This document shows, in pieces, positions 3,013-19,747 of a stretch of 22,135 nucleotides of DNA. Under the pieces are notes generated by a model that saw nothing but the letters and a program-made list of their open reading frames with translations, was not told where the DNA came from and searched no databases. Positions within the stretch are counted from its first letter, which is position 1, and each line of letters opens with the position of its first letter. The stretch comes from a virus. Position numbers and translations under genes: made by a program. The stretch is from IMG/VR virus record IMGVR_UViG_3300022687_000019, positions 1 through 22,135 of that record; one strand, given 5' to 3'.

Positions 3013-3360
3013 ATGAACCGTTTCAGCGAATGCGAACTCTATGACCTCACCTTCCGGGTATGTCTGGCATCGGTAAAGCTGGCCTTCCCGCATATACCCC
3101 TCGCTGTCATCATTGATCCCCCGCACGGACATTTCGAGGCGTCCTTTGCACGACAGATTGCCGTCCACCTGATCATTGCACGGTTCGGCATTCCGAAGCG
3201 CCGCGCAGGCGAAGTCGTTGACCGAAAACGATGGTCGATTGGCCGCGCAATGGAGGTGGTCGATAGGCGTCTTGATGAGGTCGAGTTCGAACAGCAGTAC
3301 CGGATCATTGCGGAGCGCGCCGAGAGTATGTTCCAGGACAAGCTTAGGGAGGCTGCATGA
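3013..3360 (+). CDS. DnaA domain-IV-like early protein
   Basis: The protein has 115 residues from the ATG at 3013, which has AGGAG at 3001-3005. An upstream in-frame ATG at 2983 lies inside the microprotein gene and is less likely. Residues 45-80 (SFARQIAVHLIIARFGIPKRRAGEVVDRKRWSIGRAMEVVDRRLD) follow the layout of the DNA-binding domain IV of DnaA: ARQIA...YL, a turn, an acidic/basic loop replacing the GGRDHTTV signature, and a final helix. The C-terminus is a charged helix. It has no AAA+ domain, so it cannot be an initiator on its own. It may bind DNA near the phage ends or at DnaA-box-like sites. The next gene starts inside its stop codon (ATGA). Confidence 0.6.
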   Translation: MNRFSECELYDLTFRVCLASVKLAFPHIPLAVIIDPPHGHFEASFARQIAVHLIIARFGIPKRRAGEVVDRKRWSIGRAMEVVDRRLDEVEFEQQYRIIAERAESMFQDKLREAA

Positions 3361-4198
3361 TGGCGATCTCCAAGTCTATTTCGCTCAGGAAAATAGTCAT
3401 CCCCGAACGGTTGCGCACGGTTGATGAAGATCATGCTCTCGCCATCCAGGCGTCAATTGTCGAACACGGGTTGCTGAACCCTGTCACGGTGCGCCAGACG
3501 CCAAACGGCGAGCGTGGCTACACGCTTGTGGCCGGAGACACCGCTACCGCGCAATCGAGCTTCTGGACCAGGAAGAAATCGACGCGATCGTGGTCAAAGC
3601 CGATGCCGACGAGGCTGTCCTGATCGAGATCGAGGAGAACCTGTTTCGCAACGATCTCTCCGTCATGGATCGCGCTGTTTTCGTGCAGACCTACCGCGAT
3701 GTCTGGGAGAAGACCCGAGGCGAGATCAATCCAAAAGGCGGACGCCCGAGAAACAGGGACAACTTGTCCCAGTTTTCTGGTTCGCCGGTGGATACCATCG
3801 CTCTGGAGGCCACAAACGGATTTTCGGTTGCGTGTGCGGACAGACTGGGCGTGTCACCGAAGGCAATTATGCGTCTGAACCGCATAGCCCAAAACCTTCC
3901 ACGCGAAGTCCGCTCAGCGATCAGCGGAACGCCGATCGCTGACAATCAGAGCCAGCTTCTCAAATTGGCCAAACTGGACCCGGCAAAACGCGCCAAGGCC
4001 CATATTGCCATCCGCGAAAGCAATGGCGACTTCAAGGCGGCGATCCACCTGCTTGAGCCACCAGCAAAGAAGCCAGATCCGGAACTTCAGATCCTGTCGC
4101 GCCTGATCGACAGTTGGGAGCGCGCCAAGCCCGCAACCCGCAAGAAATTTCTCTCCCATGCCGAACTCGTGGCTGCCTCGAAAGGCGGTGCGTCATGA
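3357..4198 (+). pseudogene. ParB-like DNA-binding gene interrupted by a one-base frameshift
   Basis: Two overlapping frames make one ParB/Spo0J-type protein. The first frame (3357-3623) gives the N-terminal ParB domain: ISLRKIVIPERLRTVDEDHALAIQ, GLLNPVTVR, YTLVAGD. It then loses sense after base 3539. The second frame resumes at 3542 with RYRAIELLDQEEIDAIVVKADADEAVLIEIEENLFRNDLSVMDRAVF, the rest of the conserved ParB core, and continues to 4198 with a helical DNA-binding region and a C-terminal tail. Adding one C after 3539 restores AGDHRYRA, the family's nucleotide-binding box. The full product would have about 280 residues. As written it is a frameshifted gene, either a real mutation or a sequencing error. 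ParB-like proteins are common in the early region of alphaproteobacterial Mu-like phages. AGGGAGG lies just before the start. Confidence 0.85.
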
Positions 4199-9033: not shown

Positions 9034-9225
9034 GTGCTCAAACCCGCACCCGCCGAGATCATTGATCTCTTCAGGTGGCGCGCGGCTTGCGACATCGAAG
9101 TGCGACGCCGGGAACTTGCCCGGCGCATTCAAGCCCTCAAACCCAATGCCTGGCGTCGGATCGAATTGCAGGCCGAATTGAGGCGGCTGACCATCAAGGC
9201 TTTAGAACTGGAGACGAGACTTTGA
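9034..9225 (+). CDS. Small basic helical protein, unknown
   Basis: This 63-residue protein starts at a GTG five bases after the previous stop. It ends inside the start of the next gene (TTGA). The sequence alternates Arg/Glu/Ala in a single long helix (VRRRELARRIQALKP...RRIELQAELRRLTIKALELETRL), basic overall. It could bind nucleic acid or form a coiled coil. No family is recognised. The codon pattern and tight overlap with neighbours support a real gene. Confidence 0.6.
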   Translation: MLKPAPAEIIDLFRWRAACDIEVRRRELARRIQALKPNAWRRIELQAELRRLTIKALELETRL

Positions 9226-9866
9226 CCGCCCTTGCCACCATCCACATCGGCCTCAAGCAGCTGGGCATCGTCGAGGATGATGCGCGCGATCTGTACGAAC
9301 GATTGACTGGCGAGCGGAGCTTGCGCGCTATGCGACCAAATCAGCACCAGACGCTGATAGACGAATTGGTCCGCCTGGGCTTCAAGCCGACCTCAAAAGG
9401 ATCTCGAAAGCGGCTGACAGGCAAGTATGCGCCCAAACTCCAGGCGCTCTGGATTGCCGGTTACAATCTCGGTCTGATCAGAAACAGGGATGATGCGGCG
9501 CTGCTCGCCTTCGTCAAGCGCCAGACCGGGATCGATCACACCAGGTTCCTCAGATACCAAGATGACGCCTCAAAGGCGATAGAGGCGCTCAAGGCATGGC
9601 TGGCGCGTGACGGCGGCGTGGACTGGAGCAATGACCGGTTCTTGCCCGACTGGACACAATCCAACGGCTACCGGATTGCACATGCACAGCATCGCAAACT
9701 CGAAGCGATGGGCCTGGTCATCGGCGCCGACCTTGAAGTCTGGCTCCATGATAATGGTTTTGCTAGCGCCTCCGCGCTGTCCGACCAGTCATGGATCACA
9801 GTCATGAACAACATGGGGTCCCTGATCAGGGACCGTGGCGTGGCGAAGAAGCAGGGCCAGATGTAA
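9222..9866 (+). CDS. gemA: GemA/Gp16 family early regulator (DUF1018)
   Basis: The product has 214 residues from a TTG at 9222 that overlaps the previous stop. GGAGACGAG lies just upstream. An in-frame ATG at 9075 would run through the whole preceding gene and is rejected. The sequence LATIHIGLKQLGIVEDDARDLYERLTGERSLRAMRPNQHQTLIDELVRLGFKP is the signature of the Mu GemA/Gp16 family. It is followed by KLQALWIAGYNLGLI and FVKRQTGIDHTRFLRY, also typical. In Mu, GemA modulates host gene expression and affects DNA gyrase; whether this homologue does so is unknown. It precedes the Mor-like gene, as in Mu. Confidence 0.9.
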   Translation: MTALATIHIGLKQLGIVEDDARDLYERLTGERSLRAMRPNQHQTLIDELVRLGFKPTSKGSRKRLTGKYAPKLQALWIAGYNLGLIRNRDDAALLAFVKRQTGIDHTRFLRYQDDASKAIEALKAWLARDGGVDWSNDRFLPDWTQSNGYRIAHAQHRKLEAMGLVIGADLEVWLHDNGFASASALSDQSWITVMNNMGSLIRDRGVAKKQGQM

Positions 9867-10279
9867 TGGTCCAATCGTCGCTACCAGGATTGCTAGGGCA
9901 AATAGCCGACATTGCCGGCCCTGAAGCGGCGCTCCTGATCGCGGACGCACGCGGAGGAACCCGCGTGGACATTCCAGCCGAAGCCAAGCAGGTGCATTGG
10001 CTAACCGAGTGTGTGGGCTTCGAGGTGGCAGACCAGATCTGCAAAGGCCTGGCGATCGTCGATGCTGATGACCGCAAGAAGGGTGTGACCCATGAAGTCC
10101 TGCCGCTGGGGGCCTCATCTGTTCTCAAGAAAGCCAAACGACGCTTGCGGCAGGCGCTGGAAAACGGCCACAGCGCCCGTGAAGCCGCACGAATTGCGGG
10201 ACTGCACGAACGCACGGCTTGGCGCGAAAAGGCCCGGTTGAACGGTCCGAATGACGACGACCAGCAAAGTCTGTTCTGA
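9866..10279 (+). CDS. mor: Mor-type middle/late transcription activator
   Basis: This 137-residue protein belongs to the Mor/C activator family, which turns on the next transcription phase in Mu. Mor landmarks are present in order. An N-terminal dimerisation part (LPGLLGQIADIAGPEAALLIADARGGTRVDIP) matches the GGGQVYIP region of Mu Mor. A short linker follows, then a C-terminal helix-turn-helix at about 95-125 (ALENGHSAREAARIAGLHERTAWREKARL). The segment VHWLTECVGFEVADQICKGLAIVDADDRKKGV is a little longer than in Mu Mor. The ATG at 9866 overlaps the GemA stop (TAATG). It is the last early gene, with a 138-base regulatory region following. Confidence 0.85.
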   Translation: MVQSSLPGLLGQIADIAGPEAALLIADARGGTRVDIPAEAKQVHWLTECVGFEVADQICKGLAIVDADDRKKGVTHEVLPLGASSVLKKAKRRLRQALENGHSAREAARIAGLHERTAWREKARLNGPNDDDQQSLF

Positions 10280-10417
10280 ACGGCTTGCTTTTTCCCTTAA
10301 AACTTGGTCTCAATTGGTTGCAGGTAAGGCGCTACTGACGCCTGTCAGCCCCTAGATTGAAGGTTTCTGCCCCAGGTTCGTGAGCACGTTGTTCCCGAAC
10401 TTGCTGAAGGCAGACCG
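10280..10417 (+). promoter_or_regulatory. Middle/late promoter region with CTGACGCCTGTCAG dyad
   Basis: This 138-base gap separates the early operon from the endolysin operon. At 10335-10348 it has CTGACGCCTGTCAG, an imperfect palindrome with five-base arms. The same form, as a perfect palindrome and also followed by CCC, recurs at 18650-18663 before the protease/capsid operon. A second small dyad AGGCG/CGCCT (10327-10331, 10339-10343) overlaps it. A TAGATT at 10353-10358 could be a -10 box. Mor-type activators bind short dyads upstream of weak promoters, so this is the natural Mor target. Confidence 0.55.
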
Positions 10418-11383
10418 ATGTCGAACCTCCCTTATGACCCACGCCTCATACCGTTCACCGGCCATAATGAAGGCAAGGTGCTAAAAGCCTATCGTTGCCC
10501 GGCCGGCGTCATCACGATCGGATTTGGTTTCACATGGGGGTCGAAGATTTTCCGGGAGTGGTGGCTTGAACGCCATGGTCGAAAGCTGCGCCTGGGCGAC
10601 ATGATCTCGGAAGCGGACGCTTTCTACCTGCTCAAGGCTATCATTGACCGTGAGTATTCCAAACCGGTGATGAGCCGGGCACCGAAAGCCACGCCGCACG
10701 CTAAAGCAGCGGCGATTGATATGCTTATCAATTGCGGCCTGGGGGCGGCGAAATGGACATGGTTCGCTGCCCTTGTCCGTAATGATGTGCGCGATTCCGC
10801 CCGCCGTCTAAAGGTGACCGCACTGACCGCCAACGGCCGGCGACTGCCAGGCCTCGTGCGCCGCCGTGCCGAGGCGGCGACCATCATGGAATTCAACAAG
10901 TGGCCTGCCTGGGTCAAGGAACCCCGCACGCCGGCACCCAAAGAGATCAAGGCCGTCATGCCGTCGTGGCATCTCGGTGAGGATGACCGCAAACAAGCCA
11001 TAAAATGGCTGATCAAGCTTGGTTATCTGGCCCAATCTCCGAAACCGAACAACGACCTGATCGTGTCGGCAACCCGACGCTTTCAGGGAGTCCATCCGCA
11101 GCTTGATGTTGATGGCATACTTGGCAGGGCCACACTCGATCAGCTCCAACGAGTGATCGATCTGAAGGCCAAGTCAGCCAAGGGTGCGGCAGGCTCCACT
11201 GCTGGTGCCGCAGCCGGCGCATCCGATCATGTGGCCGGTGCGACCGGCTACGGCGACTGGATCCTGTATGGCAGCCTTGCCGTTCTGGTCGTCGGTGGCG
11301 CCTGGCTCGCTTGGCGTTATCGCGACGAACTGGCACTGGCGCTGAAGGGATCGGCGACGCTTCGAAAGAGAGGCCGGGCATGA
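10418..11383 (+). CDS. GH24 endolysin with PG-binding domain and C-terminal membrane anchor
   Basis: This phage lysozyme hydrolyses the glycan strands of peptidoglycan. The catalytic region at residues 1-165 has Glu18, Cys27 and Thr33 in HNEGKVLKAYRCPAGVITIG, the E-8-C/D-5-T spacing of T4/P22-like muramidases. Residues 178-248 resemble a peptidoglycan-binding domain (AIKWLIKLGYL...ATRRFQGVHPQLDVDGILGRATLDQLQ). A Gly/Ala-rich linker follows, then one hydrophobic helix at about 282-299 (WILYGSLAVLVVGGAWLAW) and a basic tail. It has no N-terminal signal. It starts the lysis operon; the holin gene overlaps its end. The C-terminal anchor is unusual, since many endolysins carry N-terminal signal-arrest segments. 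Confidence 0.9.
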   Translation: MSNLPYDPRLIPFTGHNEGKVLKAYRCPAGVITIGFGFTWGSKIFREWWLERHGRKLRLGDMISEADAFYLLKAIIDREYSKPVMSRAPKATPHAKAAAIDMLINCGLGAAKWTWFAALVRNDVRDSARRLKVTALTANGRRLPGLVRRRAEAATIMEFNKWPAWVKEPRTPAPKEIKAVMPSWHLGEDDRKQAIKWLIKLGYLAQSPKPNNDLIVSATRRFQGVHPQLDVDGILGRATLDQLQRVIDLKAKSAKGAAGSTAGAAAGASDHVAGATGYGDWILYGSLAVLVVGGAWLAWRYRDELALALKGSATLRKRGRA

Positions 11384-11922
11384 GTGTGCTGGCAGGCATC
11401 CTTGCAGGCATTGCTGCCGAAATCGGTGCTCCGTTGGTCAGGAAGATCCTGGAACCCAAGATAGGAGCGACCGGCGGCGCGCTTGCTGAGACTGTCATCA
11501 AGACCATTGCGGGTAAGGCTGGTGTTGAACCTTCTGAATTGCCTGATCTCGAACCAGCCATTCTTGAAGAAGCTGTCCGGACAACCGAAGCAGAAGCGCC
11601 TGAATTGATCGCGCTCTATGCGGCCGGGCTCGAAGGTCAGTTCGCCCTGCTTCAGACCGAAACCAAGGAAGGCTTCTGGCAGTCTTTCTGGCGTTACGGC
11701 TGGATGTATCTCCTCGCTGTTTTCTGGGTCTGGCGGATCATCGCAGCTCCGATCGTCAATCAGCGGCTGGGTTCAGGCGGCGGAATGATGATCGAGATGA
11801 TTGATGTCGCCACCCTGATGACACTCACCTCCTGGTTCATGGCGCTCTACATGGGTGGCCACACCGTCAAGGATCTCGGCAAGAATGTGATCGAGGCGGT
11901 GCTCAAGCGGGGCAAGACGTGA
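11380..11922 (+). CDS. 3TM holin-like protein
   Basis: The start at 11380 overlaps the endolysin stop codon (ATGA). The longer frame beginning inside the endolysin gene is rejected. The 180-residue protein has an amphipathic N-terminus with an Ile/Ala-rich helix (VLAGILAGIAAEIGAPLVRKILEP). An acidic middle follows. The C-terminal half carries hydrophobic segments around 112-128 (WRYGWMYLLAVFWVWRIIAAP) and 148-165 (ATLMTLTSWFMALYMGG). This matches the 'holin of 3TMs' family found beside lysozymes in alphaproteobacterial phages and gene transfer agents. It would form the membrane hole or lesion that releases or triggers the endolysin. Confidence 0.8.
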   Translation: MSVLAGILAGIAAEIGAPLVRKILEPKIGATGGALAETVIKTIAGKAGVEPSELPDLEPAILEEAVRTTEAEAPELIALYAAGLEGQFALLQTETKEGFWQSFWRYGWMYLLAVFWVWRIIAAPIVNQRLGSGGGMMIEMIDVATLMTLTSWFMALYMGGHTVKDLGKNVIEAVLKRGKT

Positions 11923-12131
11923 GCGCCGCCGACTTCATGATCGAGCAGGCCGAGGAGCGGGTCGCGCGTGAGCGCGATCTGAAGCTTGAACAGGCCACCA
12001 GGCTGGTGGCCAGATCCGGGCGGAAAGATTGCCGGGATTGTGGAAGCGCGATCCCGGAAGAACGCCGCAACGCCGCCCCCTTCGCGCAGCGTTGCATTGA
12101 GTGCCAGCAAGCCTTCGAACGGAACCGGTGA
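11919..12131 (+). CDS. DksA/TraR-family C4 zinc finger protein
   Basis: This 70-residue protein starts with a GTG that overlaps the holin stop. Its C-terminal half has the four-cysteine zinc finger of the DksA/TraR family: CRDCGSAIPEERRNAAPFAQRCIECQ. This has Cys-x2-Cys, the IPxxR motif, and a second Cys-x2-Cys. The N-terminal half is a charged helix (MIEQAEERVARERDLKLEQA). Family members bind in the RNA polymerase secondary channel and change promoter choice without needing ppGpp. Such small versions are common in the lysis region of Mu-like phages. Confidence 0.9.
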   Translation: MSAADFMIEQAEERVARERDLKLEQATRLVARSGRKDCRDCGSAIPEERRNAAPFAQRCIECQQAFERNR

Positions 12132-12533
12132 ATGGATGAATTGGGTAACAAGCTGATCGAGCAGGCCGGACCCGTCGGCGCGGCGCTTGGCGTGGCGATC
12201 CTTGCTGCCGGCGCGGTTGTCGCCAGGGCGAAGGGTTGGCTGGGTTTCTCGGCACAGGTGAAGAGTGATGTGCCGAAGGCGGACACCAATGACGACGTCA
12301 TGTCTGAACTACGCGCGATCAACGGACGGCTGGGCAAGTTCGACGAGCGCATCACTGAACTCGAACATGACCTGGCATCACGCCCGACCAGAGAGGACAT
12401 TCACAGGATCGAGATGTCCATGGTTCGGCTTGATGAACGCATGACCGCTTTGACAGGAAACGTAAAGGCCACCGGAGCGGGTGTTTCCCGGATCGAGAAT
12501 TTTTTGCTTGAGCTATCGAGAAAGGCAAAGTGA
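12132..12533 (+). CDS. DUF2730 family membrane coiled-coil protein
   Basis: The 133-residue protein has one hydrophobic segment near the N-terminus, about 14-31 (PVGAALGVAILAAGAVVAR). It is followed by a long charged coiled coil. The region RPTREDIHRIEMSMVRLDERMTALTGNVKATGAGVSRIENFLLE matches the DUF2730 pattern of Mu-like phages (PT+D+H...L...+L...V..VEN-FLL). The start ATG directly follows the previous stop. It may help with lysis as an inner-membrane, periplasm-spanning component, because no other spanin-like gene is visible here. That is inference from position and architecture. Confidence 0.8.
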   Translation: MDELGNKLIEQAGPVGAALGVAILAAGAVVARAKGWLGFSAQVKSDVPKADTNDDVMSELRAINGRLGKFDERITELEHDLASRPTREDIHRIEMSMVRLDERMTALTGNVKATGAGVSRIENFLLELSRKAK

Positions 12534-12835
12534 TGTTTGAAGGCTATGCCGAATACTATGAACAGGACGCCCGTCTTACAATCCTGAAGGCGCTGCATGC
12601 AGAGAGCGATGGTCGGCTCAACGAAGTCCTGATCACAAAAAACCTCGACGCCTTCGGCTATCGGCGTTCACGCAATTGGGTGAGAACCCAATTGCGTGCG
12701 CTGGAAGAAGTGGGCGTGATCAAAATCGCGGAGGCCGGTACCGTGATGCTGGCTACCTTGCTGCAGTCGGGCGTTGATCATGTCGAGCGCCGGACGATTG
12801 TTGAAGGCATTGCTCGTCCTTCTGCGGGCAACTGA
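12533..12835 (+). CDS. Winged-helix phage protein, VpaChn25_0724-like
   Basis: The 100-residue protein has the sequence pattern of the Mu-like family placed directly after DUF2730. The pattern is RLTILKALHAESDGRLNEVLITKNLDAFGYRRSRNWVRTQLRALEEVGVIKI, then a beta wing (GTVMLATLLQSGVDHVERR), ending GIARPSAGN. This is a winged helix-turn-helix with recognition helix at about 44-58. The start could also be GTG 12530; ATG 12533 has AAAGG at the better distance. The coding sequence contains a perfect 13-bp hairpin (12669-12698) over the recognition helix. It probably binds DNA, but the target is unknown. Confidence 0.8.
   Translation: MFEGYAEYYEQDARLTILKALHAESDGRLNEVLITKNLDAFGYRRSRNWVRTQLRALEEVGVIKIAEAGTVMLATLLQSGVDHVERRTIVEGIARPSAGN
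12669..12698 (+). repeat. Perfect 13-bp inverted repeat with GAGA tetraloop inside a coding region
   Basis: CACGCAATTGGGT (12669-12681) and its exact complement (12686-12698) flank a four-base GAGA loop. GAGA is a GNRA tetraloop, so the RNA hairpin would be very stable. It lies entirely within the winged-helix gene and is not followed by a T run, so it is not a classical terminator. It could slow ribosomes, be a processing site, or be a protein-binding dyad. Confidence 0.7.
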
Positions 12836-12837
12836 TC

Positions 12838-13434
12838 ATGGCCAAGGACAAGGAAGGCCGTGGCTGGCTTAGCAAGATGGATCGCCTGCCTGATGAGGCA
12901 GGCCACGTCGTGGCCTGGGCCGCGCTGGAGCTGGGTGCCATGGAGCGCCCGCAGACAGAGATCTATGCAGAGTTCCGCGACAAACTCATCGCCCTTCAAG
13001 GGGAACTCGGTCTCGGGTTCGATATCCCGTCATTCTCTGCTTTCAACCGGTTTTCAACCAAGAAAGCCATGATGACGCGGGTGTTGGAGCAGCGGAACAA
13101 GATCACCGAGGCGCTGGCCGACAAGCTCACCCCGAAATCATCCGACGACCTGACAAAGTACCTGACCGAAACTTTGAAGACGCTGATTGGAGACATGATC
13201 GAGGCAGCGATGATGGGCCGTGCGAATGTGTCGACAAAGAATGTCATGGAGCTGTCGTCAGCGCTTCGCCAGGTAATCACGGCGCAGGCGACATCCTCCA
13301 AGCATCGTCGCACCCTCGATGCCGAGGTCGACATCAAAATCGAGGAGACAATCGAAACGGTCAGCAAACAAGTTGGCCTCTCAACTGAGCAGGTTGCGCA
13401 AATCCGCCGCGACGTTCTGGGGGTGCGTGAATGA
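12838..13434 (+). CDS. Small terminase subunit, Mu gp27-like (DUF3486)
   Basis: The 198-residue protein belongs to the DUF3486 family of Mu-like phages, the DNA-recognition partner of the large terminase. Evidence is the opening KMDRLPDEAGHVVAWAALELGAMERPQTEIYAEFRDKLIAL, typical of the family's RLP...W....L. start, and a helical DNA-binding part. The central region SFSAFNRFSTKK follows, then long helices and a charged end. It starts two bases after the previous stop, and the large terminase start overlaps its stop (ATGA at 13431). It would direct packaging of host-flanked Mu-like genomes. Confidence 0.88.
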   Translation: MAKDKEGRGWLSKMDRLPDEAGHVVAWAALELGAMERPQTEIYAEFRDKLIALQGELGLGFDIPSFSAFNRFSTKKAMMTRVLEQRNKITEALADKLTPKSSDDLTKYLTETLKTLIGDMIEAAMMGRANVSTKNVMELSSALRQVITAQATSSKHRRTLDAEVDIKIEETIETVSKQVGLSTEQVAQIRRDVLGVRE

Positions 13435-15065
13435 CCGGTTCACCTGACCTGTTTGCCTCGCCGCCCGTAATATCGCGAGCGCCCGACCAATTGCCGGAAG
13501 AGTTCACACGCGGTTCCGAGATCCCGGAAGCGCTCGATCCGTTGGGCGACGGCATCCTGATGAAACATCAAGCAGAATGGCTTGCCGACAAGAGCGACCT
13601 CAAGCTTGGTGAGAAAGGGCGGCGAACAGGCATCACTTTTGCCGAGGCTCTTGATGACACGCTGATCGCCGCCTCACGCCGGGAAGCCGGTGGCGACAAC
13701 ATCTTCTATATCGGCGATACCAAAGACAAGGGCCGCGAGTTCATCGGCTATGTCGCGCACTTCGCCAGGATCGTCGCCAAGGAATTGCTGGCGATCGAGG
13801 AGTTCATGTTCGAGGACATCAAGGAAGATGGCTCTTCGCAGACGATCTCGGCGTTCCGTATACGGTTCGGCAGCGGCTTTCGGGTCGAAGCCCTCTCATC
13901 TCGCCCGGAAAACATCCGTGGCCTGCAAGGAATCGTGGTGATCGACGAAGCGGCCTTCCACAAGGACGTGCGCGGTGTCCTCGATGCGGTCAACGCACTT
14001 CTGATCTGGGGCGGCAAGATCCGGGTGATCTCCACCCACAACGGTGTTCTAAGCCCCTTCAATGAACTGATCCGGGAAGCGCGTGCAGGAAAGAACCCGT
14101 TTTCGGTTCACTTCATCCCCTTTGACGATGCGATCCGCAACGGGCTGTTCAAGCGGGTTTGCTTGATCAAGGGCACGGAATGGTCGCCCGAGGCTGAAGC
14201 CGAATGGGAAGCCAGGATCCGGTCATCCTATGGGCCGCGCACCGCCCAGATGAAACAGGAGCTCGATGCCATCCCGGCCGAGGCCGAAGGCGCGGCACTG
14301 ACCCGGATGCAAATCGAAAGCTGCATGGCGCCCAACATTCCGCTGGTTCGCTGGTCCTGCACCGATGAGTTCAAGGATTACCCGGAGCATATTCGCAAGA
14401 TCGAGGCTCTGGCGTTTTGCGAGCGCGAGCTCAAGCCGCTGCTCGAACGCCTCAACACCCGGCTTGCCCATGTCTTCGGCGAGGACTTTGCTCGCTCAGG
14501 CGATGTCACCGACATCATCCCGTTGGAGATCGGAACCGACCTGGTCCGCCGCTGCCCGTTCATCGTCGAACTCAGGAACGTGCCTTTCGATCAGCAGCGC
14601 GACATCCTCTATTATCTCGTTGACCGGTTGCCGCGCATGTCCGGCGGCGCGCTCGACGCCACCGGCAATGGTGCTTACCTGGCTGAGAAAGCAGCCCAGC
14701 GCTATGGAGCGACAATCGTCGAGGTGAAGCTGTCGCAGTCCTGGTATCAATCCGAGATGCCCGCCTATATCGAGGCGTTCTCCGATAGCACGATCGTGCT
14801 GCCGCGCCATGACGACATCCTGCAGGATCACCAGGCGCTTGCGTTCGTCAACGGTATAATCAAGGTGCCTGACAATCACCGGTTCAAGGGCAGCGATGGA
14901 TTTGACCGGCACGGCGACAGCGCGGTCGCAGGCGCGCTGGGCTACTTCGCCAGCCGGCAGAACCTTCCCGAATTCGGCTACATCCCGGCAAGCGAACTCG
15001 ACAATACAAACGGCACGTTCGAAACCGCCCACGAATTCGAGACGGATGGCAGATCGCTATGGTGA
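13431..15065 (+). CDS. Large terminase (TerL), Mu gp28-like
   Basis: This packaging motor and nuclease has 544 residues. The ATPase domain has a Walker A-like motif GEKGRRTGIT (60-69), the terminase SSRPENIRGL motif (156-165), Walker B IVVIDEAAF with Asp172 and Glu173, and the coupling motif VISTHN (199-204). The C-terminal RNase H-like nuclease has acidic residues Asp352 in GEDFARSGD, Asp409 in GGALDATGNGAYLAE and Asp496 in RHGDSAVAGALGY. This arrangement matches Mu gp28-type terminases. All key residues are present. The start overlaps the small terminase stop, and the portal gene overlaps its end. Confidence 0.95.
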   Translation: MTGSPDLFASPPVISRAPDQLPEEFTRGSEIPEALDPLGDGILMKHQAEWLADKSDLKLGEKGRRTGITFAEALDDTLIAASRREAGGDNIFYIGDTKDKGREFIGYVAHFARIVAKELLAIEEFMFEDIKEDGSSQTISAFRIRFGSGFRVEALSSRPENIRGLQGIVVIDEAAFHKDVRGVLDAVNALLIWGGKIRVISTHNGVLSPFNELIREARAGKNPFSVHFIPFDDAIRNGLFKRVCLIKGTEWSPEAEAEWEARIRSSYGPRTAQMKQELDAIPAEAEGAALTRMQIESCMAPNIPLVRWSCTDEFKDYPEHIRKIEALAFCERELKPLLERLNTRLAHVFGEDFARSGDVTDIIPLEIGTDLVRRCPFIVELRNVPFDQQRDILYYLVDRLPRMSGGALDATGNGAYLAEKAAQRYGATIVEVKLSQSWYQSEMPAYIEAFSDSTIVLPRHDDILQDHQALAFVNGIIKVPDNHRFKGSDGFDRHGDSAVAGALGYFASRQNLPEFGYIPASELDNTNGTFETAHEFETDGRSLW

Positions 15066-16681
15066 CACGCAAAAGCACAATCCTCGGGCCGGATGGCGGG
15101 CCTATCGAGGTTTCGGGCCTGTCCGAAGAGATCGCACAGCCGGCGCTGACCGGAAACCGGCAGACCCATTCCGATCGGGAAGCGACAGGTCTGACACCGG
15201 AGAAGCTCGCCTCCATTTTGCAACGTGCAGCGACGGGCGACATTCGATCCTATCTGACGCTGGCAGAAGAGATGGAGGAGCGATATCTCCATTATGCGAG
15301 CCAGCTCCAAACCCGACGCCTGGCAATCGAAAGCCTGACCGTATCGGTCGAGGCTGACAAGACGATACCGACCAGGATCGTCGACGCGGTCAAGACGCTG
15401 ATCGAGAGTGACGGCTTCGACGACGCGATCGGTTCGCTCACTGACGGGATAGCCAAGGGTTTTGCGACGGTCGAGATGATCTGGGAGTATGAGCAGAAGC
15501 TCCTGCAGCCGGTTCGCTATGTTGCCCGAGACCAGCGCTTCTTCCAGTTCGACCGCGTCGGCCTGTCTGAACTTCGCCTCGTGGTCGATGGCAATGCCGA
15601 TGGCGAGATGCTGCCCGAGGCCAAGTTCCTGCGCCATATGCCACGCGCAAAGATGGGTATTCCGATCCGGCGCGGTGTCGCCCGGCCTGCCGCCTGGGCC
15701 TACATTATTCAGGCGTTCGGCCTTCAGGACTGGGCGGCGTTCGCCGAGATCTATGGCATACCATTCCGGGTCGGCCGCTATCATTCAGCGGCATCTGAGA
15801 AAGACAAGCGAACCCTTCTTCGCGCCGTCTCGATGATTGCCAATGATGGTGCTGCGATCATTCCCCAAGGCATGGACGTCGAGTTCCATGAGGTCAATGG
15901 ATCGCGCGGTGAAGCGGTCTTTGGCGGGCTTCTCGATTATGTCGACAAGCAGATCTCAAAGCTGGTTGTCGGGCAAACGATGACATCCGATGACGGCTCG
16001 TCACTTGGACAGGCCAAGATCCATAACGAAGTGCGCCTCGACATCTTGCGTGCTGATGGCAAGCAACTCGCATCAACCATCAATCGCGATCTGATCCGGC
16101 CGTTCATCGATCTCAATTTCGGGCCACAAAACGACTATCCGCAAATCGAATTGCCGGTTCCAGATCCCGAAGACGTGGAAGCCCTGTCTTCCAGCTTGGA
16201 GAAGCTCGTGCCTTTGGGTTTGAAGGTGGGACAGCGCGAGGTTCGTGACAAGCTCGGCCTGTCCGACCCCGGAGAGGAAGATGATCTGCTGCAGGCCCCT
16301 TCGCCTCACGCCGCAGCCACCGCTCCGCAAAGTGAACAGGGCAACAAAGGCAAGGAAGAAAACCCGAAGTTCGTCAAACTGTCAGCGGGTGCGGATCACC
16401 ATTCCGGCTGCGCATGCCCGTCGTGCCAGAGCTTCGCGGCCGCCGCTGATAGTGAGCACGCTGGCGTGAATGAACTTGAAGCGCTGTTCGGCTCGATCTC
16501 CGGTTTTGAGCCGTTGTCAGCGCCGTTGTTGCAACCGTTTATCGACATCCTGGCAAAGGCCAAGAGCTACGACGAAGCAATCTCGATGCTCAACGCGGCC
16601 CGCCCGGATGCCGGCCCTTTCATTGAGAAGCTCTCCGAGCTCACCGCAATCGCCCGTGGTATTGGCAACGTGAAGGACTAG
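15059..16681 (+). CDS. Portal protein, Mu gp29-like (DUF935)
   Basis: The portal forms the ring at the head vertex through which DNA is packaged. The 540-residue protein has the DUF935 pattern: GDIRSYLTLAEEMEERYLHYASQLQTRRLAIESL, a helical core, then AWAYIIQAFGLQDWAAFAEIYGIPFRVGRY. Further on come PQGMDVEFHEV and DKQISKLVVGQTMTSDDGSSLGQAKIHNEVR. It overlaps the terminase gene by seven bases. The C-terminal third has an unusual cysteine/histidine cluster at about residue 440 (DHHSGCACPSCQSF), which may bind a metal, followed by a small helical region. This tail may contact the F protein. A downstream GTG at 15062 is an alternative start. Confidence 0.93.
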   Translation: MVTRKSTILGPDGGPIEVSGLSEEIAQPALTGNRQTHSDREATGLTPEKLASILQRAATGDIRSYLTLAEEMEERYLHYASQLQTRRLAIESLTVSVEADKTIPTRIVDAVKTLIESDGFDDAIGSLTDGIAKGFATVEMIWEYEQKLLQPVRYVARDQRFFQFDRVGLSELRLVVDGNADGEMLPEAKFLRHMPRAKMGIPIRRGVARPAAWAYIIQAFGLQDWAAFAEIYGIPFRVGRYHSAASEKDKRTLLRAVSMIANDGAAIIPQGMDVEFHEVNGSRGEAVFGGLLDYVDKQISKLVVGQTMTSDDGSSLGQAKIHNEVRLDILRADGKQLASTINRDLIRPFIDLNFGPQNDYPQIELPVPDPEDVEALSSSLEKLVPLGLKVGQREVRDKLGLSDPGEEDDLLQAPSPHAAATAPQSEQGNKGKEENPKFVKLSAGADHHSGCACPSCQSFAAAADSEHAGVNELEALFGSISGFEPLSAPLLQPFIDILAKAKSYDEAISMLNAARPDAGPFIEKLSELTAIARGIGNVKD

Positions 16682-16690
16682 GCCGGATAC

Positions 16691-17971
16691 ATGGCCGAGA
16701 TCAGCAAGCCTTTTCCGGTACCAGAAGCGGTTACCGGATATTTCGACCGCAAGATCCTCAAGCCGTCCTTCTCCTGGCTCGATGTTTATGGCGAGGAACA
16801 TGCCAACGCCATGACCGTGGCGGGTGCGGTTGAGCTCGAAGTCCTTTCCGCCTTCCGGTCGACGATGTCAGACAGCCTCGCCAATGGCGAAGGATTTGAG
16901 ACCTGGAAGGGCAAGATCACCGGCGAGCTCTCACGGCTTGGCTGGTTCGGGCCGCGCCTGGTCAAGGATCCGCGCGGCATAGATCCAGACAAGCTGGTCA
17001 ATTATACTTCGGACCGGCGGCTCAAGCTGATTTTCTGGTCGAACATGAATTCGGCGCGCGCCGCCGGTCAATGGCATCGGGCGCAGGAATCGAAGCGGTT
17101 CTTGCCATATCTCCTCTACGTGCGCACAACATCCGTCGAACCACGGCCCGAGCATTTGGCCTTCGCTGGCACGATCCTGCCGGTCGATCACGCGTTCTGG
17201 CGCACACATTTCCCGCCCAATGGCTGGCTATGTAAATGCACAGTGCGTCAAATTACCGAACGCGAAGCGAAGTCCCTGATCGGCACCAGCCGCGTCCTGG
17301 GCAAAAATCCGGACGGAACGGATATCGAGATTTCGTACTCAGACCAACCACCCGCAACAGGGCCGGAGCGGCCGCACGTCAACCGGCGCACAGGTCAGGT
17401 TGAGATGATCCCCGAAGGCATCGATCCGGGCTGGCATACCAATCCCGGCTATACGCGCACCAAAACGTTGATCCGATCCGTGTCAGACCGGCTGGAAGGA
17501 ACATCGGGTCAGCATGCCACGCGCGTGCTCACCGATCTTTGGTCGGACCCGTTCCTGCGGATCGCTCAGAAACAGTCTAGCCAGATATTCCTGCCTGCCG
17601 GTCGGTCCGAGCGTTTGGCGGATGAACTTGGCGCAGTTGTCGGACGCAAAGACATCTCGCCGGTTGTTGCGGTTGGCACCCAGGATATCATCACGCGAAA
17701 AACCAAACACGGATTGACCCTGGATGACTTCGCGCTTCTGCCATTGATCCTTGAGGGCGCCATCGTGTTGCCCGATCCGAACGGCGACGACCAGACACGA
17801 TCGCTGATAGCCCGGATAGGCAAGACCTGGTGGCGCGTGTTCATCAGGATTTCGAAGAACGGCTTTTTGCGGGTCAACTCCATGCATCAACGCCGCCGCT
17901 CGGCCGTCGAAAAGGAACTTCGGGCCAGCGGTCGCTCGATCAAAGACATCAGGGATCTGGGAGAGAAATGA
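16691..17971 (+). CDS. F: MuF-like head morphogenesis protein with C-terminal nuclease-like domain
   Basis: The 426-residue minor head protein corresponds to Mu gpF/SPP1 gp7, carried inside the capsid and acting in head assembly. The MuF core covers about 35-190, including SNMNSARAAGQWHRAQES and the signature RPEHLAFAGTILPVDHAFWRTHFPPNGWLCKCTV (152-185) with its two cysteines. Residues 195-290 are a linker typical of Mu F proteins. The last part, about 300-410, resembles the PBECR toxin-nuclease group (phage barnase/EndoU/ColicinE5/RelE-like domains) that is often fused to MuF: TRKTKHGLTLDDFALLPLILEGAIVLPD, then a beta strand TWWRVFIRISKNGFLRVNSMH. Which residues are catalytic is not certain. 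Confidence 0.9.
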   Translation: MAEISKPFPVPEAVTGYFDRKILKPSFSWLDVYGEEHANAMTVAGAVELEVLSAFRSTMSDSLANGEGFETWKGKITGELSRLGWFGPRLVKDPRGIDPDKLVNYTSDRRLKLIFWSNMNSARAAGQWHRAQESKRFLPYLLYVRTTSVEPRPEHLAFAGTILPVDHAFWRTHFPPNGWLCKCTVRQITEREAKSLIGTSRVLGKNPDGTDIEISYSDQPPATGPERPHVNRRTGQVEMIPEGIDPGWHTNPGYTRTKTLIRSVSDRLEGTSGQHATRVLTDLWSDPFLRIAQKQSSQIFLPAGRSERLADELGAVVGRKDISPVVAVGTQDIITRKTKHGLTLDDFALLPLILEGAIVLPDPNGDDQTRSLIARIGKTWWRVFIRISKNGFLRVNSMHQRRRSAVEKELRASGRSIKDIRDLGEK

Positions 17972-18150
17972 AACGTGGCAGGGAGGGACGGCGTTCCCCT
18001 CCATGGTCAGCTAGGACAACCGTAAATTCACTGCCACCAAAACAAAATAACACCGAAGGGGGGGAAGCTCAATGTCCACATCGCAAAGCCACCAAATCAG
18101 TCGCGGATCTGGCCATCGCTAATTCCGGACCCTCGCAATCCATAATCGCG
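17972..18150. other. Short gap after F, no convincing gene
   Basis: A GGAGGG/CCCTCC stem just after the F stop (about 17980-18002) could weaken transcription beyond F. A run of seven Gs followed by AAG (18058-18066) forms a strong Shine-Dalgarno-like sequence before an ATG at 18072. The ATG opens only 16 codons, so I do not call a gene. The longer plus-strand frame through this area lacks protein-like composition. Confidence 0.3.
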
Positions 18151-18375
18151 CTATTTAGAGTGAAAGCGCTCCTCTTTCTGTGGATTCCTGCAGAACTTCA
18201 GTTTCAGTTCCTCAAGGTTGGTGACGCCACTTTGGAAATACCAAAGGATGTCCGTCGCCAACTCGGTTTTCGCCGGCTCATCATCTGCGGCGATATTGAG
18301 CTCGATGCACAGATCAGCGAAAGCTGCGCGGAGTATGGCGAGTTCTTGTGGGTCAGCAACAGTTCGAAAAGGCAT
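18151..18375 (-). CDS. Small leftward helical protein, possible moron
   Basis: This 74-residue protein lies on the strand opposite to all surrounding late genes. The sequence (RTVADPQELAILRAAFADLCIELNI, then TELATDILWYFQSGVTNLEELKLKF) closely follows the style of short rhizobial chromosomal proteins of unknown function, with a DP-x-EL-A start and a final EEL motif. That resemblance is from memory. It is small, helical and without membrane segments. An AGG lies about nine bases before the ATG, and a weak promoter-like pair TTGACG-17-TATTGA (plus-strand 18447 to 18419) is upstream. Its orientation allows expression in the lysogen independent of phage late control. It occupies the position of gene G in Mu. 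Confidence 0.6.
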   Translation of the reverse strand: MPFRTVADPQELAILRAAFADLCIELNIAADDEPAKTELATDILWYFQSGVTNLEELKLKFCRNPQKEERFHSK

Positions 18376-18700
18376 AAGCGCGACCTATCCAAAATGCTCG
18401 AAAGATTTCCAGACCAAATCAATACTATGGCTGGTTCATCCCGTCAAAACACAAACCGTCAGATTTGGCCACTGACGCGCACCGCGTCTCAACTGGTATC
18501 GATGGGCGACTTACATTGAAATGCGCGCCCACGGACTTTGAAGCGGCTTCAAAAATCGATCTGATTTGGTGAGGTGGGATCGACATGACGACTGCAAGTC
18601 GATTTCGGTGGTTAAGCTTACATAAGCCGCTTACCGGTCCAATTCCGATCTGACAGCTGTCAGCCCGCCAGATGCGGTTTCGTGATGCAAGTGTGCAGTC
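18376..18700. promoter_or_regulatory. Intergenic region with perfect CTGACAGCTGTCAG palindrome before the head operon
   Basis: No gene is convincing in this region of about 325 bases. At 18650-18663 is CTGACAGCTGTCAG, a perfect 14-bp palindrome 37 bases before the protease start. It shares the CTGAC-N4-GTCAG form and the following CCC with the site at 10335-10348. A weak promoter-like pair for the leftward gene lies at 18419-18447. The region probably separates late transcription from the leftward gene and gives the head operon its own activator-dependent promoter. Confidence 0.5.
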
Positions 18701-19747
18701 ATGAACACGCGATTGCAAACATTTTCTACCGGCCAGACGGCGGACGCCCATAGCGCCACCGGCGTCATCCTCTTTGACGTCTATGCCGCTGGCAAGCCGG
18801 ACGACGCTTCGCGCGGTCCGGAATGGGTCAAGCTCGCACCCCGCGGCCGCTTCACCGCCCGTGACGGACGCCAGCTCGAAGTCGATCCCGAACTCCTGGT
18901 CCGCCGTTTCGACGCCGACGCGGTTGATCTGCCAATCGATCTCGATCACGCGACGGCCAAGGGCGGCCTGTTCGGTGATGCAGCTCCGGCGATCGGGTGG
19001 ATCAACAAGCTCGAAGCCCGGCCGGATGGTCTGTACGGCAAGACCGATTGGCTCGACGAGGGAATGAAGATCCTCAAGGCCCGCTCGCACCGCTACATTT
19101 CGCCATCACTCAAGCCAGACCAATTCGGCAAGGCGTTGTGGCTGCACTCGGCTGGCCTGGTCGCTGCACCCGGCATTTCCATGCCCGCGCTTGCCGGCGC
19201 GGAATTTTCATCACAAACCAAGGAACCTCAAATGTCCAAGGCAATTGCCCTTGCACTCGGTCTTACCGAGGACGCAAGCGAGACCTCATGTCTGAGCGCC
19301 ATTCAGACCTTGTCCGCCGGCCGGATCGAGAAGACCGTCCATGAAGAAGCGCTGGCATCGCTTCAGGCGACAACGACCGAGCTCGAAACGCTCAAGGCCG
19401 AGACGCGAAAAGGCAAGGTCGACGAGCTGATCGAGGGCGCGCTCAAGGCCAAGAAGATCACGCCCGCCCAGCGTCAGCATTACGAAACACTGTGCGCCAC
19501 CGATGACGGCCTCACCTCTGTCACGGCCCTGTTTGAGGCAATGACCGCCAAGCTCGGCGATACCGGTCTCGACGGCAAACCTGCGCCCGGCCAGACCACC
19601 ACTGAAAACCTTGATGCCGGCGATGTCGACATCATGGCGCTGTCCGCCAACATTCGAACACGGGTCGCCGAGGCCGCCGCGCGTGGCGTGGTGCTGAACT
19701 ATGACGCCGAGTTCGATCTCGCACTCACGGAGATCACCAAGCCATGA
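18701..19747 (+). CDS. I: Mu I-like capsid maturation protease with scaffold
   Basis: The 348-residue protein belongs to the Mu gene I family, a head maturation protease fused to a scaffold. The protease part covers about 20-165: EWVKLAPRGRFTARDGR, DLPIDLDHATAKGG with conserved His83, APAIGWINKLEARPDGLYGKTDWLDEG, RSHRYISPSL (Ser134) and LVAAPGISMPAL. The C-terminal part (178-348) is helical and charged, as expected for a scaffold, with its own start at 19232. An in-frame stop at 18683-18685 limits the gene to this ATG, which has no clear ribosome binding site. The transcript may have a very short leader. The next gene overlaps its stop (ATGA). Confidence 0.9.
   Translation: MNTRLQTFSTGQTADAHSATGVILFDVYAAGKPDDASRGPEWVKLAPRGRFTARDGRQLEVDPELLVRRFDADAVDLPIDLDHATAKGGLFGDAAPAIGWINKLEARPDGLYGKTDWLDEGMKILKARSHRYISPSLKPDQFGKALWLHSAGLVAAPGISMPALAGAEFSSQTKEPQMSKAIALALGLTEDASETSCLSAIQTLSAGRIEKTVHEEALASLQATTTELETLKAETRKGKVDELIEGALKAKKITPAQRQHYETLCATDDGLTSVTALFEAMTAKLGDTGLDGKPAPGQTTTENLDAGDVDIMALSANIRTRVAEAAARGVVLNYDAEFDLALTEITKP
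19232..19747 (+). CDS. Z: Internal in-frame start for a Z-like scaffold protein
   Basis: Codon 178 of the I gene is an ATG preceded by AAGGA (19220-19224) at the ideal distance, so the last 171 residues can be made separately. In Mu, gene Z is produced exactly this way from within I and serves as the scaffold. The sequence (MSKAIALALGLTEDASETSCLSA...) is a self-contained beginning. Its body is a charged helix around TTELETLKAETRKGKVDELIEGALKAKKI. This supports the same dual-start design here. Confidence 0.65.
   Translation: MSKAIALALGLTEDASETSCLSAIQTLSAGRIEKTVHEEALASLQATTTELETLKAETRKGKVDELIEGALKAKKITPAQRQHYETLCATDDGLTSVTALFEAMTAKLGDTGLDGKPAPGQTTTENLDAGDVDIMALSANIRTRVAEAAARGVVLNYDAEFDLALTEITKP

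Follow-up and report, generated by a model that had tools for sequence, protein, structure and literature searches.

A shared CTGAC-N4-GTCAG dyad ahead of the late operons of a Mu-like phage of alphaproteobacteria as candidate operator of a single Mor-family activator

Two exact copies of the dyad CTGAC-N4-GTCAG, each located upstream of a late operon of a Mu-like phage, are in all likelihood operators of a single Mor-family activator that would open every late operon of this phage, as judged from comparisons of sequences. The trans-acting factor is very probably the predicted Mor-family protein encoded at positions 9866 to 10279 of the window, which is the whole stretch of DNA analyzed here with a length of 22,135 nucleotides. 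The window is a 22-kb viral contig fragment of a Mu-like phage and carries genes for a MuA-type transposase, MuB, a DUF3164 protein, GemA, the activator, a lysozyme, a DksA-like zinc finger protein, gp27, an I-type protease, and a capsid protein. The phage is a Mu-like phage of alphaproteobacteria, and its activator and promoter class is the already known Mor/C class of Mu.

Phage Mu uses two activators in sequence, Mor and then C. In the phage studied here, the activator would be produced last in the early operon, and an activator dimer would bind CTGAC-N4-GTCAG centered at −43.5, replace the missing −35 element, and bring the sigma-70 RNA polymerase of the host to a weak −10 site. The operons opened in this way would be those for endolysin/packaging and protease/capsid plus, in relatives and past the end of the window, the operon for tail sheath/tape measure. 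The second step of Mu would be absent, and a staggering of the late operons, if there is any, could come from the strength of the sites or of the −10 motifs. We infer binding, dimerization, activation, and timing by the activator. Since the endolysin, protease, and sheath operons all have this operator in front of them, the whole late region may be opened by one protein.

Dyads of the window and the genes behind them

Exactly two exact matches to CTGAC-N4-GTCAG were found when all 22,135 bases were searched, compared to a mean of 0.01 per window in dinucleotide shuffles, which never contained two. This agrees with the initial annotation, which had described an identical palindrome ahead of both late operons, the second one being perfectly symmetric and both being followed by CCC. 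Dyad 1 (CTGAC-GCCT-GTCAG, CTGACGCCTGTCAG, positions 10335 to 10348) is located between the activator gene with its stop at 10279 and the lysozyme open reading frame with its ATG at 10418. Dyad 2 (CTGACAGCTGTCAG, positions 18650 to 18663) is indeed fully self-complementary and immediately precedes the ATG at 18701 of the Mu I-type protease gene. Neither dyad is assigned to a strand, both have counterparts at the same place in relatives, and they are the predicted operators of the endolysin/packaging and the protease/capsid operon, respectively. When two mismatches were allowed, 14 matches occurred in the window compared to 9.2 expected, which was not significant, so that the two-mismatch pattern was regarded as noise and only near-exact sites were counted.

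The CCC was seen directly 3′ of both dyads of the window. In an alignment of 52 sites from the window phage and its relatives, in which the outer arms were fixed by the selection of the sites, the first three bases 3′ of the dyad were C in 49/52, 46/52, and 36/52 cases, a G was directly 5′ of the dyad in 40/52, and several relatives had GGG and CCC flanking the dyad on its two sides. The CCC therefore mostly prolongs the palindrome outward. The last base of the 4-base spacer was T in all 52 aligned sites and the first base was A in 40 of them, which together with the flanking bases indicates an element nearer to CTGACA-NN-TGTCAG with a G before and CC(C) after it. Host genomes with related prophages contained 6 to 25 exact copies of the motif per 4 to 7 Mb, prophage sites included, so that the motif is rare in the hosts; a high frequency there had been named beforehand as an objection to an operator function.

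The operon behind dyad 1 is led by the gene for an endolysin composed of a phage lysozyme and a peptidoglycan-binding domain (10418 to 11383, + strand; PF00959, 5.4e-15; PF01471, 5.9e-5) and that behind dyad 2 by the gene for the Mu I-type head maturation protease (18701 to 19747, + strand; PF10123, 9.9e-41; PHROG 328, 1e-56). The first late operon also contains a gene for a small DksA/TraR-type zinc-finger protein (11919 to 12131; PF01258, 4.8e-11), and phage POA1180 has such a gene at the corresponding place. In the early part of the window, a ParB-like gene at 3357 to 4198 is present as two overlapping frames, 3357 to 3623 and 3590 to 4198, the latter with a match restricted to the later part of PHROG 3264. 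This appears to be a frameshift, either real or a sequencing error.

Activator gene and predicted promoters

The activator gene (9866 to 10279, + strand) encodes a protein of 137 amino acids with a C-terminal helix-turn-helix at about residues 97 to 126. It is the last gene of the early region, preceded by gemA at 9075 to 9866 and followed by the lysis genes. A gene that closes the early operon beside gemA is characteristic of the Mor/C family, and so is a C-terminal helix-turn-helix in the protein. The protein matched PHROG 836, the profile of late transcriptional activators, with an E value of 1.5e-18, and this profile is also matched by Mu Mor and Mu C (1e-10 to 1e-11). A profile-profile comparison by hhalign against Mor and C of Mu and the activator of D3112 gave 92.8% over the C-terminal half. 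In the Pfam search, the window activator had no match to PF08765 (Mor) and only weak matches to helix-turn-helix families, among them HTH_23 at residues 97 to 126 with an E value of 0.003. Of 30 relatives of the activator, 25 matched PF08765 (best value, 1.5e-7), with the matches of relatives from the genome search being below the curated cutoff, and all 30 matched HTH_23 (best value, 4.6e-7). A structure model of middling confidence (pLDDT 78, pTM 0.55) placed helices at residues 83 to 99, 104 to 111, and 115 to 126, and a fold search with this model matched general helix-turn-helix proteins only and no Mor.

The initial annotation had noted Mor but no C, and this picture held in the long relatives. 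Each of these records of 39 to 43 kb contained a single PHROG 836 activator, and PF08765 gave no match above the cutoff in them, so that there was no sign of a separate C in the long relatives. The two paralogous activators Mor and C, which define the two-tier control of Mu, were accordingly not found in these records; the window itself is a 22-kb fragment.

Downstream of each dyad, at a distance of 24 nt, the window contains a −10-like hexamer on the + strand, CAGGTT at 10373 to 10378 with a predicted start at about 10385 behind dyad 1, and the weak CAAGTG at 18688 to 18693 with a predicted start at about 18700 behind dyad 2, both assigned by geometry. A sigma-70 promoter with two hexamers was not called around dyad 1. 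Among the aligned relatives, the endolysin and the sheath class, each taken separately, had their peak of similarity to TATAAT at 24 nt 3′ of the dyad, and the protease class alone gave no sharp peak at this offset. With the offset preset, 52 of 20,000 column permutations equaled the TATAAT signal; with the offset left free, the peak was not significant, since 552 of 5,000 permutations were as good. If the hexamer is taken as positions −12 to −7, the center of the dyad is at −43.5, which is the position published for Mor on the Mu promoter Pm (PMC4390567, PMC4287176). A dyad near −43.5, a −10 motif, and no −35 motif were thus found upstream of a predicted start, as in Mor/C-dependent promoters.

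In the window (18664 to 18703) and in 15 relatives, the ATG of the protease gene was 36 to 38 nt 3′ of the dyad in 16/16 cases and coincided with the predicted transcription start, and a Shine-Dalgarno-like sequence was almost always absent at these 16 protease sites. The protease mRNA is therefore predicted to be leaderless.

Sites in relatives and their divergence with the activator

In relatives fetched either by the protease or by the activator, this dyad again separated the activator gene from the lysozyme gene and occurred a second time before the protease gene, and the CTGAC-N4 dyad was kept at both places down to about 50% identity of the activator. Most long records had a third copy about 60 to 75 nt 5′ of the gene for the tail sheath, as had been predicted for the tail operon. 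The relative G003 had two dyads in tandem before the tail sheath gene, G022 had sites with one mismatch before the protease and tail genes, the exact sheath site was absent from G014, and in L061 the second site was ahead of the sheath gene and the protease was not located there. Of the earlier proposal that one activator opens both operons, the single activator and the shared dyad stood in the long relatives; the number of operons should be three and not two.

In some phages, cargo genes were inserted between the activator and the lysozyme gene, among them L052, a Hoeflea metagenome-assembled genome, and, downstream of the activator, L004 and L005. One small cargo gene of L052 had its own copy of the dyad (10865 to 10878) along with the promoter sequence around it, so that a late promoter appears to have been duplicated there.

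IMG/VR was also scanned with CTGACANNTGTCAGCC, a consensus from these relatives, using no protein information. The scan yielded at least 120 stretches, some on contigs already seen. Among the matches listed, at least 80 stretches contained Mu-like late genes or the activator, and 70 of 72 protease, sheath, or endolysin genes (40, 22, and 10; 71 to 72 recognized) had the motif on their own strand no more than 150 nt upstream of their start.

More distant phages had other dyads. The activator of POA1180 was 38.7% identical, and this phage had a CTGAC-N3 dyad at all three places; its relatives L099 to L104 kept the 3-base spacer wherever a site was found. CGGAC-N4 occurred twice in L105 and twice in RcapMu, there ahead of the endolysin and the protease gene, CGGAC-N3 twice in L078, and GGAAC-N-GTTCC at both places in L079, among four copies in 20 kb. 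Phage B3 (L107) contained TTTTCG-N6-CGAAAA exactly three times (11566, 19835, and 26818; expected, 0.0005), ahead of the genes for holin, protease, and tape measure. These are probable sites of the B3 activator, and a contig scan located this dyad before the protease and tape measure genes of additional contigs as well. Two copies of CGCCA-N3-TGGCG in D3112 were rejected, since a GC-rich genome may contain that many by chance. When mapped onto the activator tree, the types of dyad required the minimum possible number of changes.

The arms of the dyad were related to one residue of the recognition helix, the one preceding its last Arg (Trp119 in the window activator). An aromatic residue or His occurred with CTGAC arms in 34/34 cases and Arg with CGGAC arms in 6/6, a tally of 34:0 versus 0:6 (Fisher test, 2.6e-7, uncorrected for phylogeny) or of 25:0 versus 0:6 without the loci fetched by the motif. 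This rule had been noted from L105, L078, and RcapMu, and homologues of the RcapMu activator were fetched afterwards; they included three more activators with an Arg helix, each accompanied by a CGGAC dyad, and L307 with a different helix and a different dyad. Homologues of the L078 activator were not found in viral contigs. On the activator tree, L105 was beside the CTGAC-N3 clade and L078 far off, indicating that the Arg/CGGAC pairing probably arose more than once. The correlation of residue and arms is the strongest indirect support for the activator itself reading the dyad.

Relation to known systems and alternative readings

Similar to Mor at the Mu promoter Pm (PMC4390567, PMC4287176), the activator, very probably a member of the Mor family, is encoded by the last early gene, and the predicted promoters have 5-bp inverted repeats centered at −43.5, a weak −10, and no −35 site. 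Unlike Pm, the spacer is 4 (or 3) bp instead of the 6 bp in Mu, the arms are different, and this type of site occurs at several late operons instead of at one middle promoter. C is likewise a single activator with related dyads at several late promoters of Mu, namely Plys, PI, PP, and Pmom, and the operons for lysis and the protease I are among its targets (PMC4287176). Here, however, no C gene was found in the long relatives, the activator is in the Mor position, a middle step would be missing, and the third site, seen in relatives, precedes the tail sheath gene. B3, RcapMu, and POA1180 likewise have one Mor/C-type gene and one repeated dyad before late operons, but sequence and spacer of the dyad differ along with the activator, B3 having a 6-bp spacer as in Mu. 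By gene content, B3, D3112, and RcapMu (annotations) and KS10 (PMC2628397) are single-activator phages. In the open literature, no description was found of an operator shared by all late operons, of its spread or matched divergence, of a single-tier regulon, or of the correlation with the helix residue, and no published binding sites were found for the activators of B3, RcapMu, and POA1180.

Single-tier control by one Mor-family activator may be the common state of transposable phages, with the Mor-then-C cascade of Mu as a derived duplication and with a readable code of the family, aromatic or His for CTGAC, Arg for CGGAC, and spacers of 3 or 4 bp; we regard the chances for and against this wider proposal as evenly balanced. 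If it is true, operators and operons would be predictable from the activator protein. The dyads described here assign probable binding sites, promoters, and limits of operons to a large group of transposable phages of alphaproteobacteria that has received little study, and they offer a natural family of activator-operator pairs, the specificity of which appears to hinge on one residue. Whether Mu is exceptional among these phages in its two-step late program becomes testable.

Evaluation of this reading needs to consider that the circuit may still be two-step, with a second, unrecognized late activator at some promoters and the shared dyad serving one step only. The three late clusters of the B3-like phage Fc02 did not all rise together in RNA-seq (PMC9936078), a regulator unrelated to Mor would be missed by profile searches, and the window encodes a small winged-helix protein at 12530 to 12835. 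Nevertheless, no second Mor/C homologue was found in the long records, one shared dyad was present ahead of all three late operons in relatives, and differences in the strength of the sites or of the −10 motifs could stagger the operons, which makes a second activator rather unlikely. Palindromes between operons may also be intrinsic transcription terminators. Long hairpins with a T run behind them were indeed present at a few sites, such as the sheath site of POA1180 and both sites of RcapMu. A longer perfect hairpin was capped by the dyad at the sheath sites of L086, L092, L093, and POA1180 (L064:19464) and at the RcapMu sites (L108:13950 and 22371), in some with T runs 3′ of it, and the operator may have merged there with the terminator of the operon ahead. 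An extended stem plus a run of at least four T, however, occurred at only 4 of 52 CTGAC-N4 sites, the two of the window not among them, and no terminator was called around dyad 1; the terminator reading of the window dyads was rejected for want of an extended stem and T run at either site. Moreover, the sequence of the arms itself was kept beyond complementarity, a −10-like element was present at a fixed spacing 3′ of the dyad, and the arms tracked the activator helix, leaving terminators as a very improbable general explanation.

Operators of another DNA-binding protein of the phage, such as the lysogeny repressor or a Ner-like protein silencing the late operons, should be considered as well, because palindromic operators are typical of repressors and sequence tools do not reveal which protein binds the dyad. 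In the CTGAC-N4 phages, however, the exact motif was before the late operons and not in the early control region, the −43.5 position without a −35 site is typical of activation, and the arms followed the residue of the activator helix. Silencing by such a protein is thus extremely unlikely, and the preferred reading remains that of operators of the single Mor-family activator.

In two phages with a CGGAC-type activator, a further CGGAC-N4-GTCCG was located before the early ParB-like gene (L306:463 and L305:900), followed by TAGAAT after about 23 nt, possibly a feedback on the early genes.
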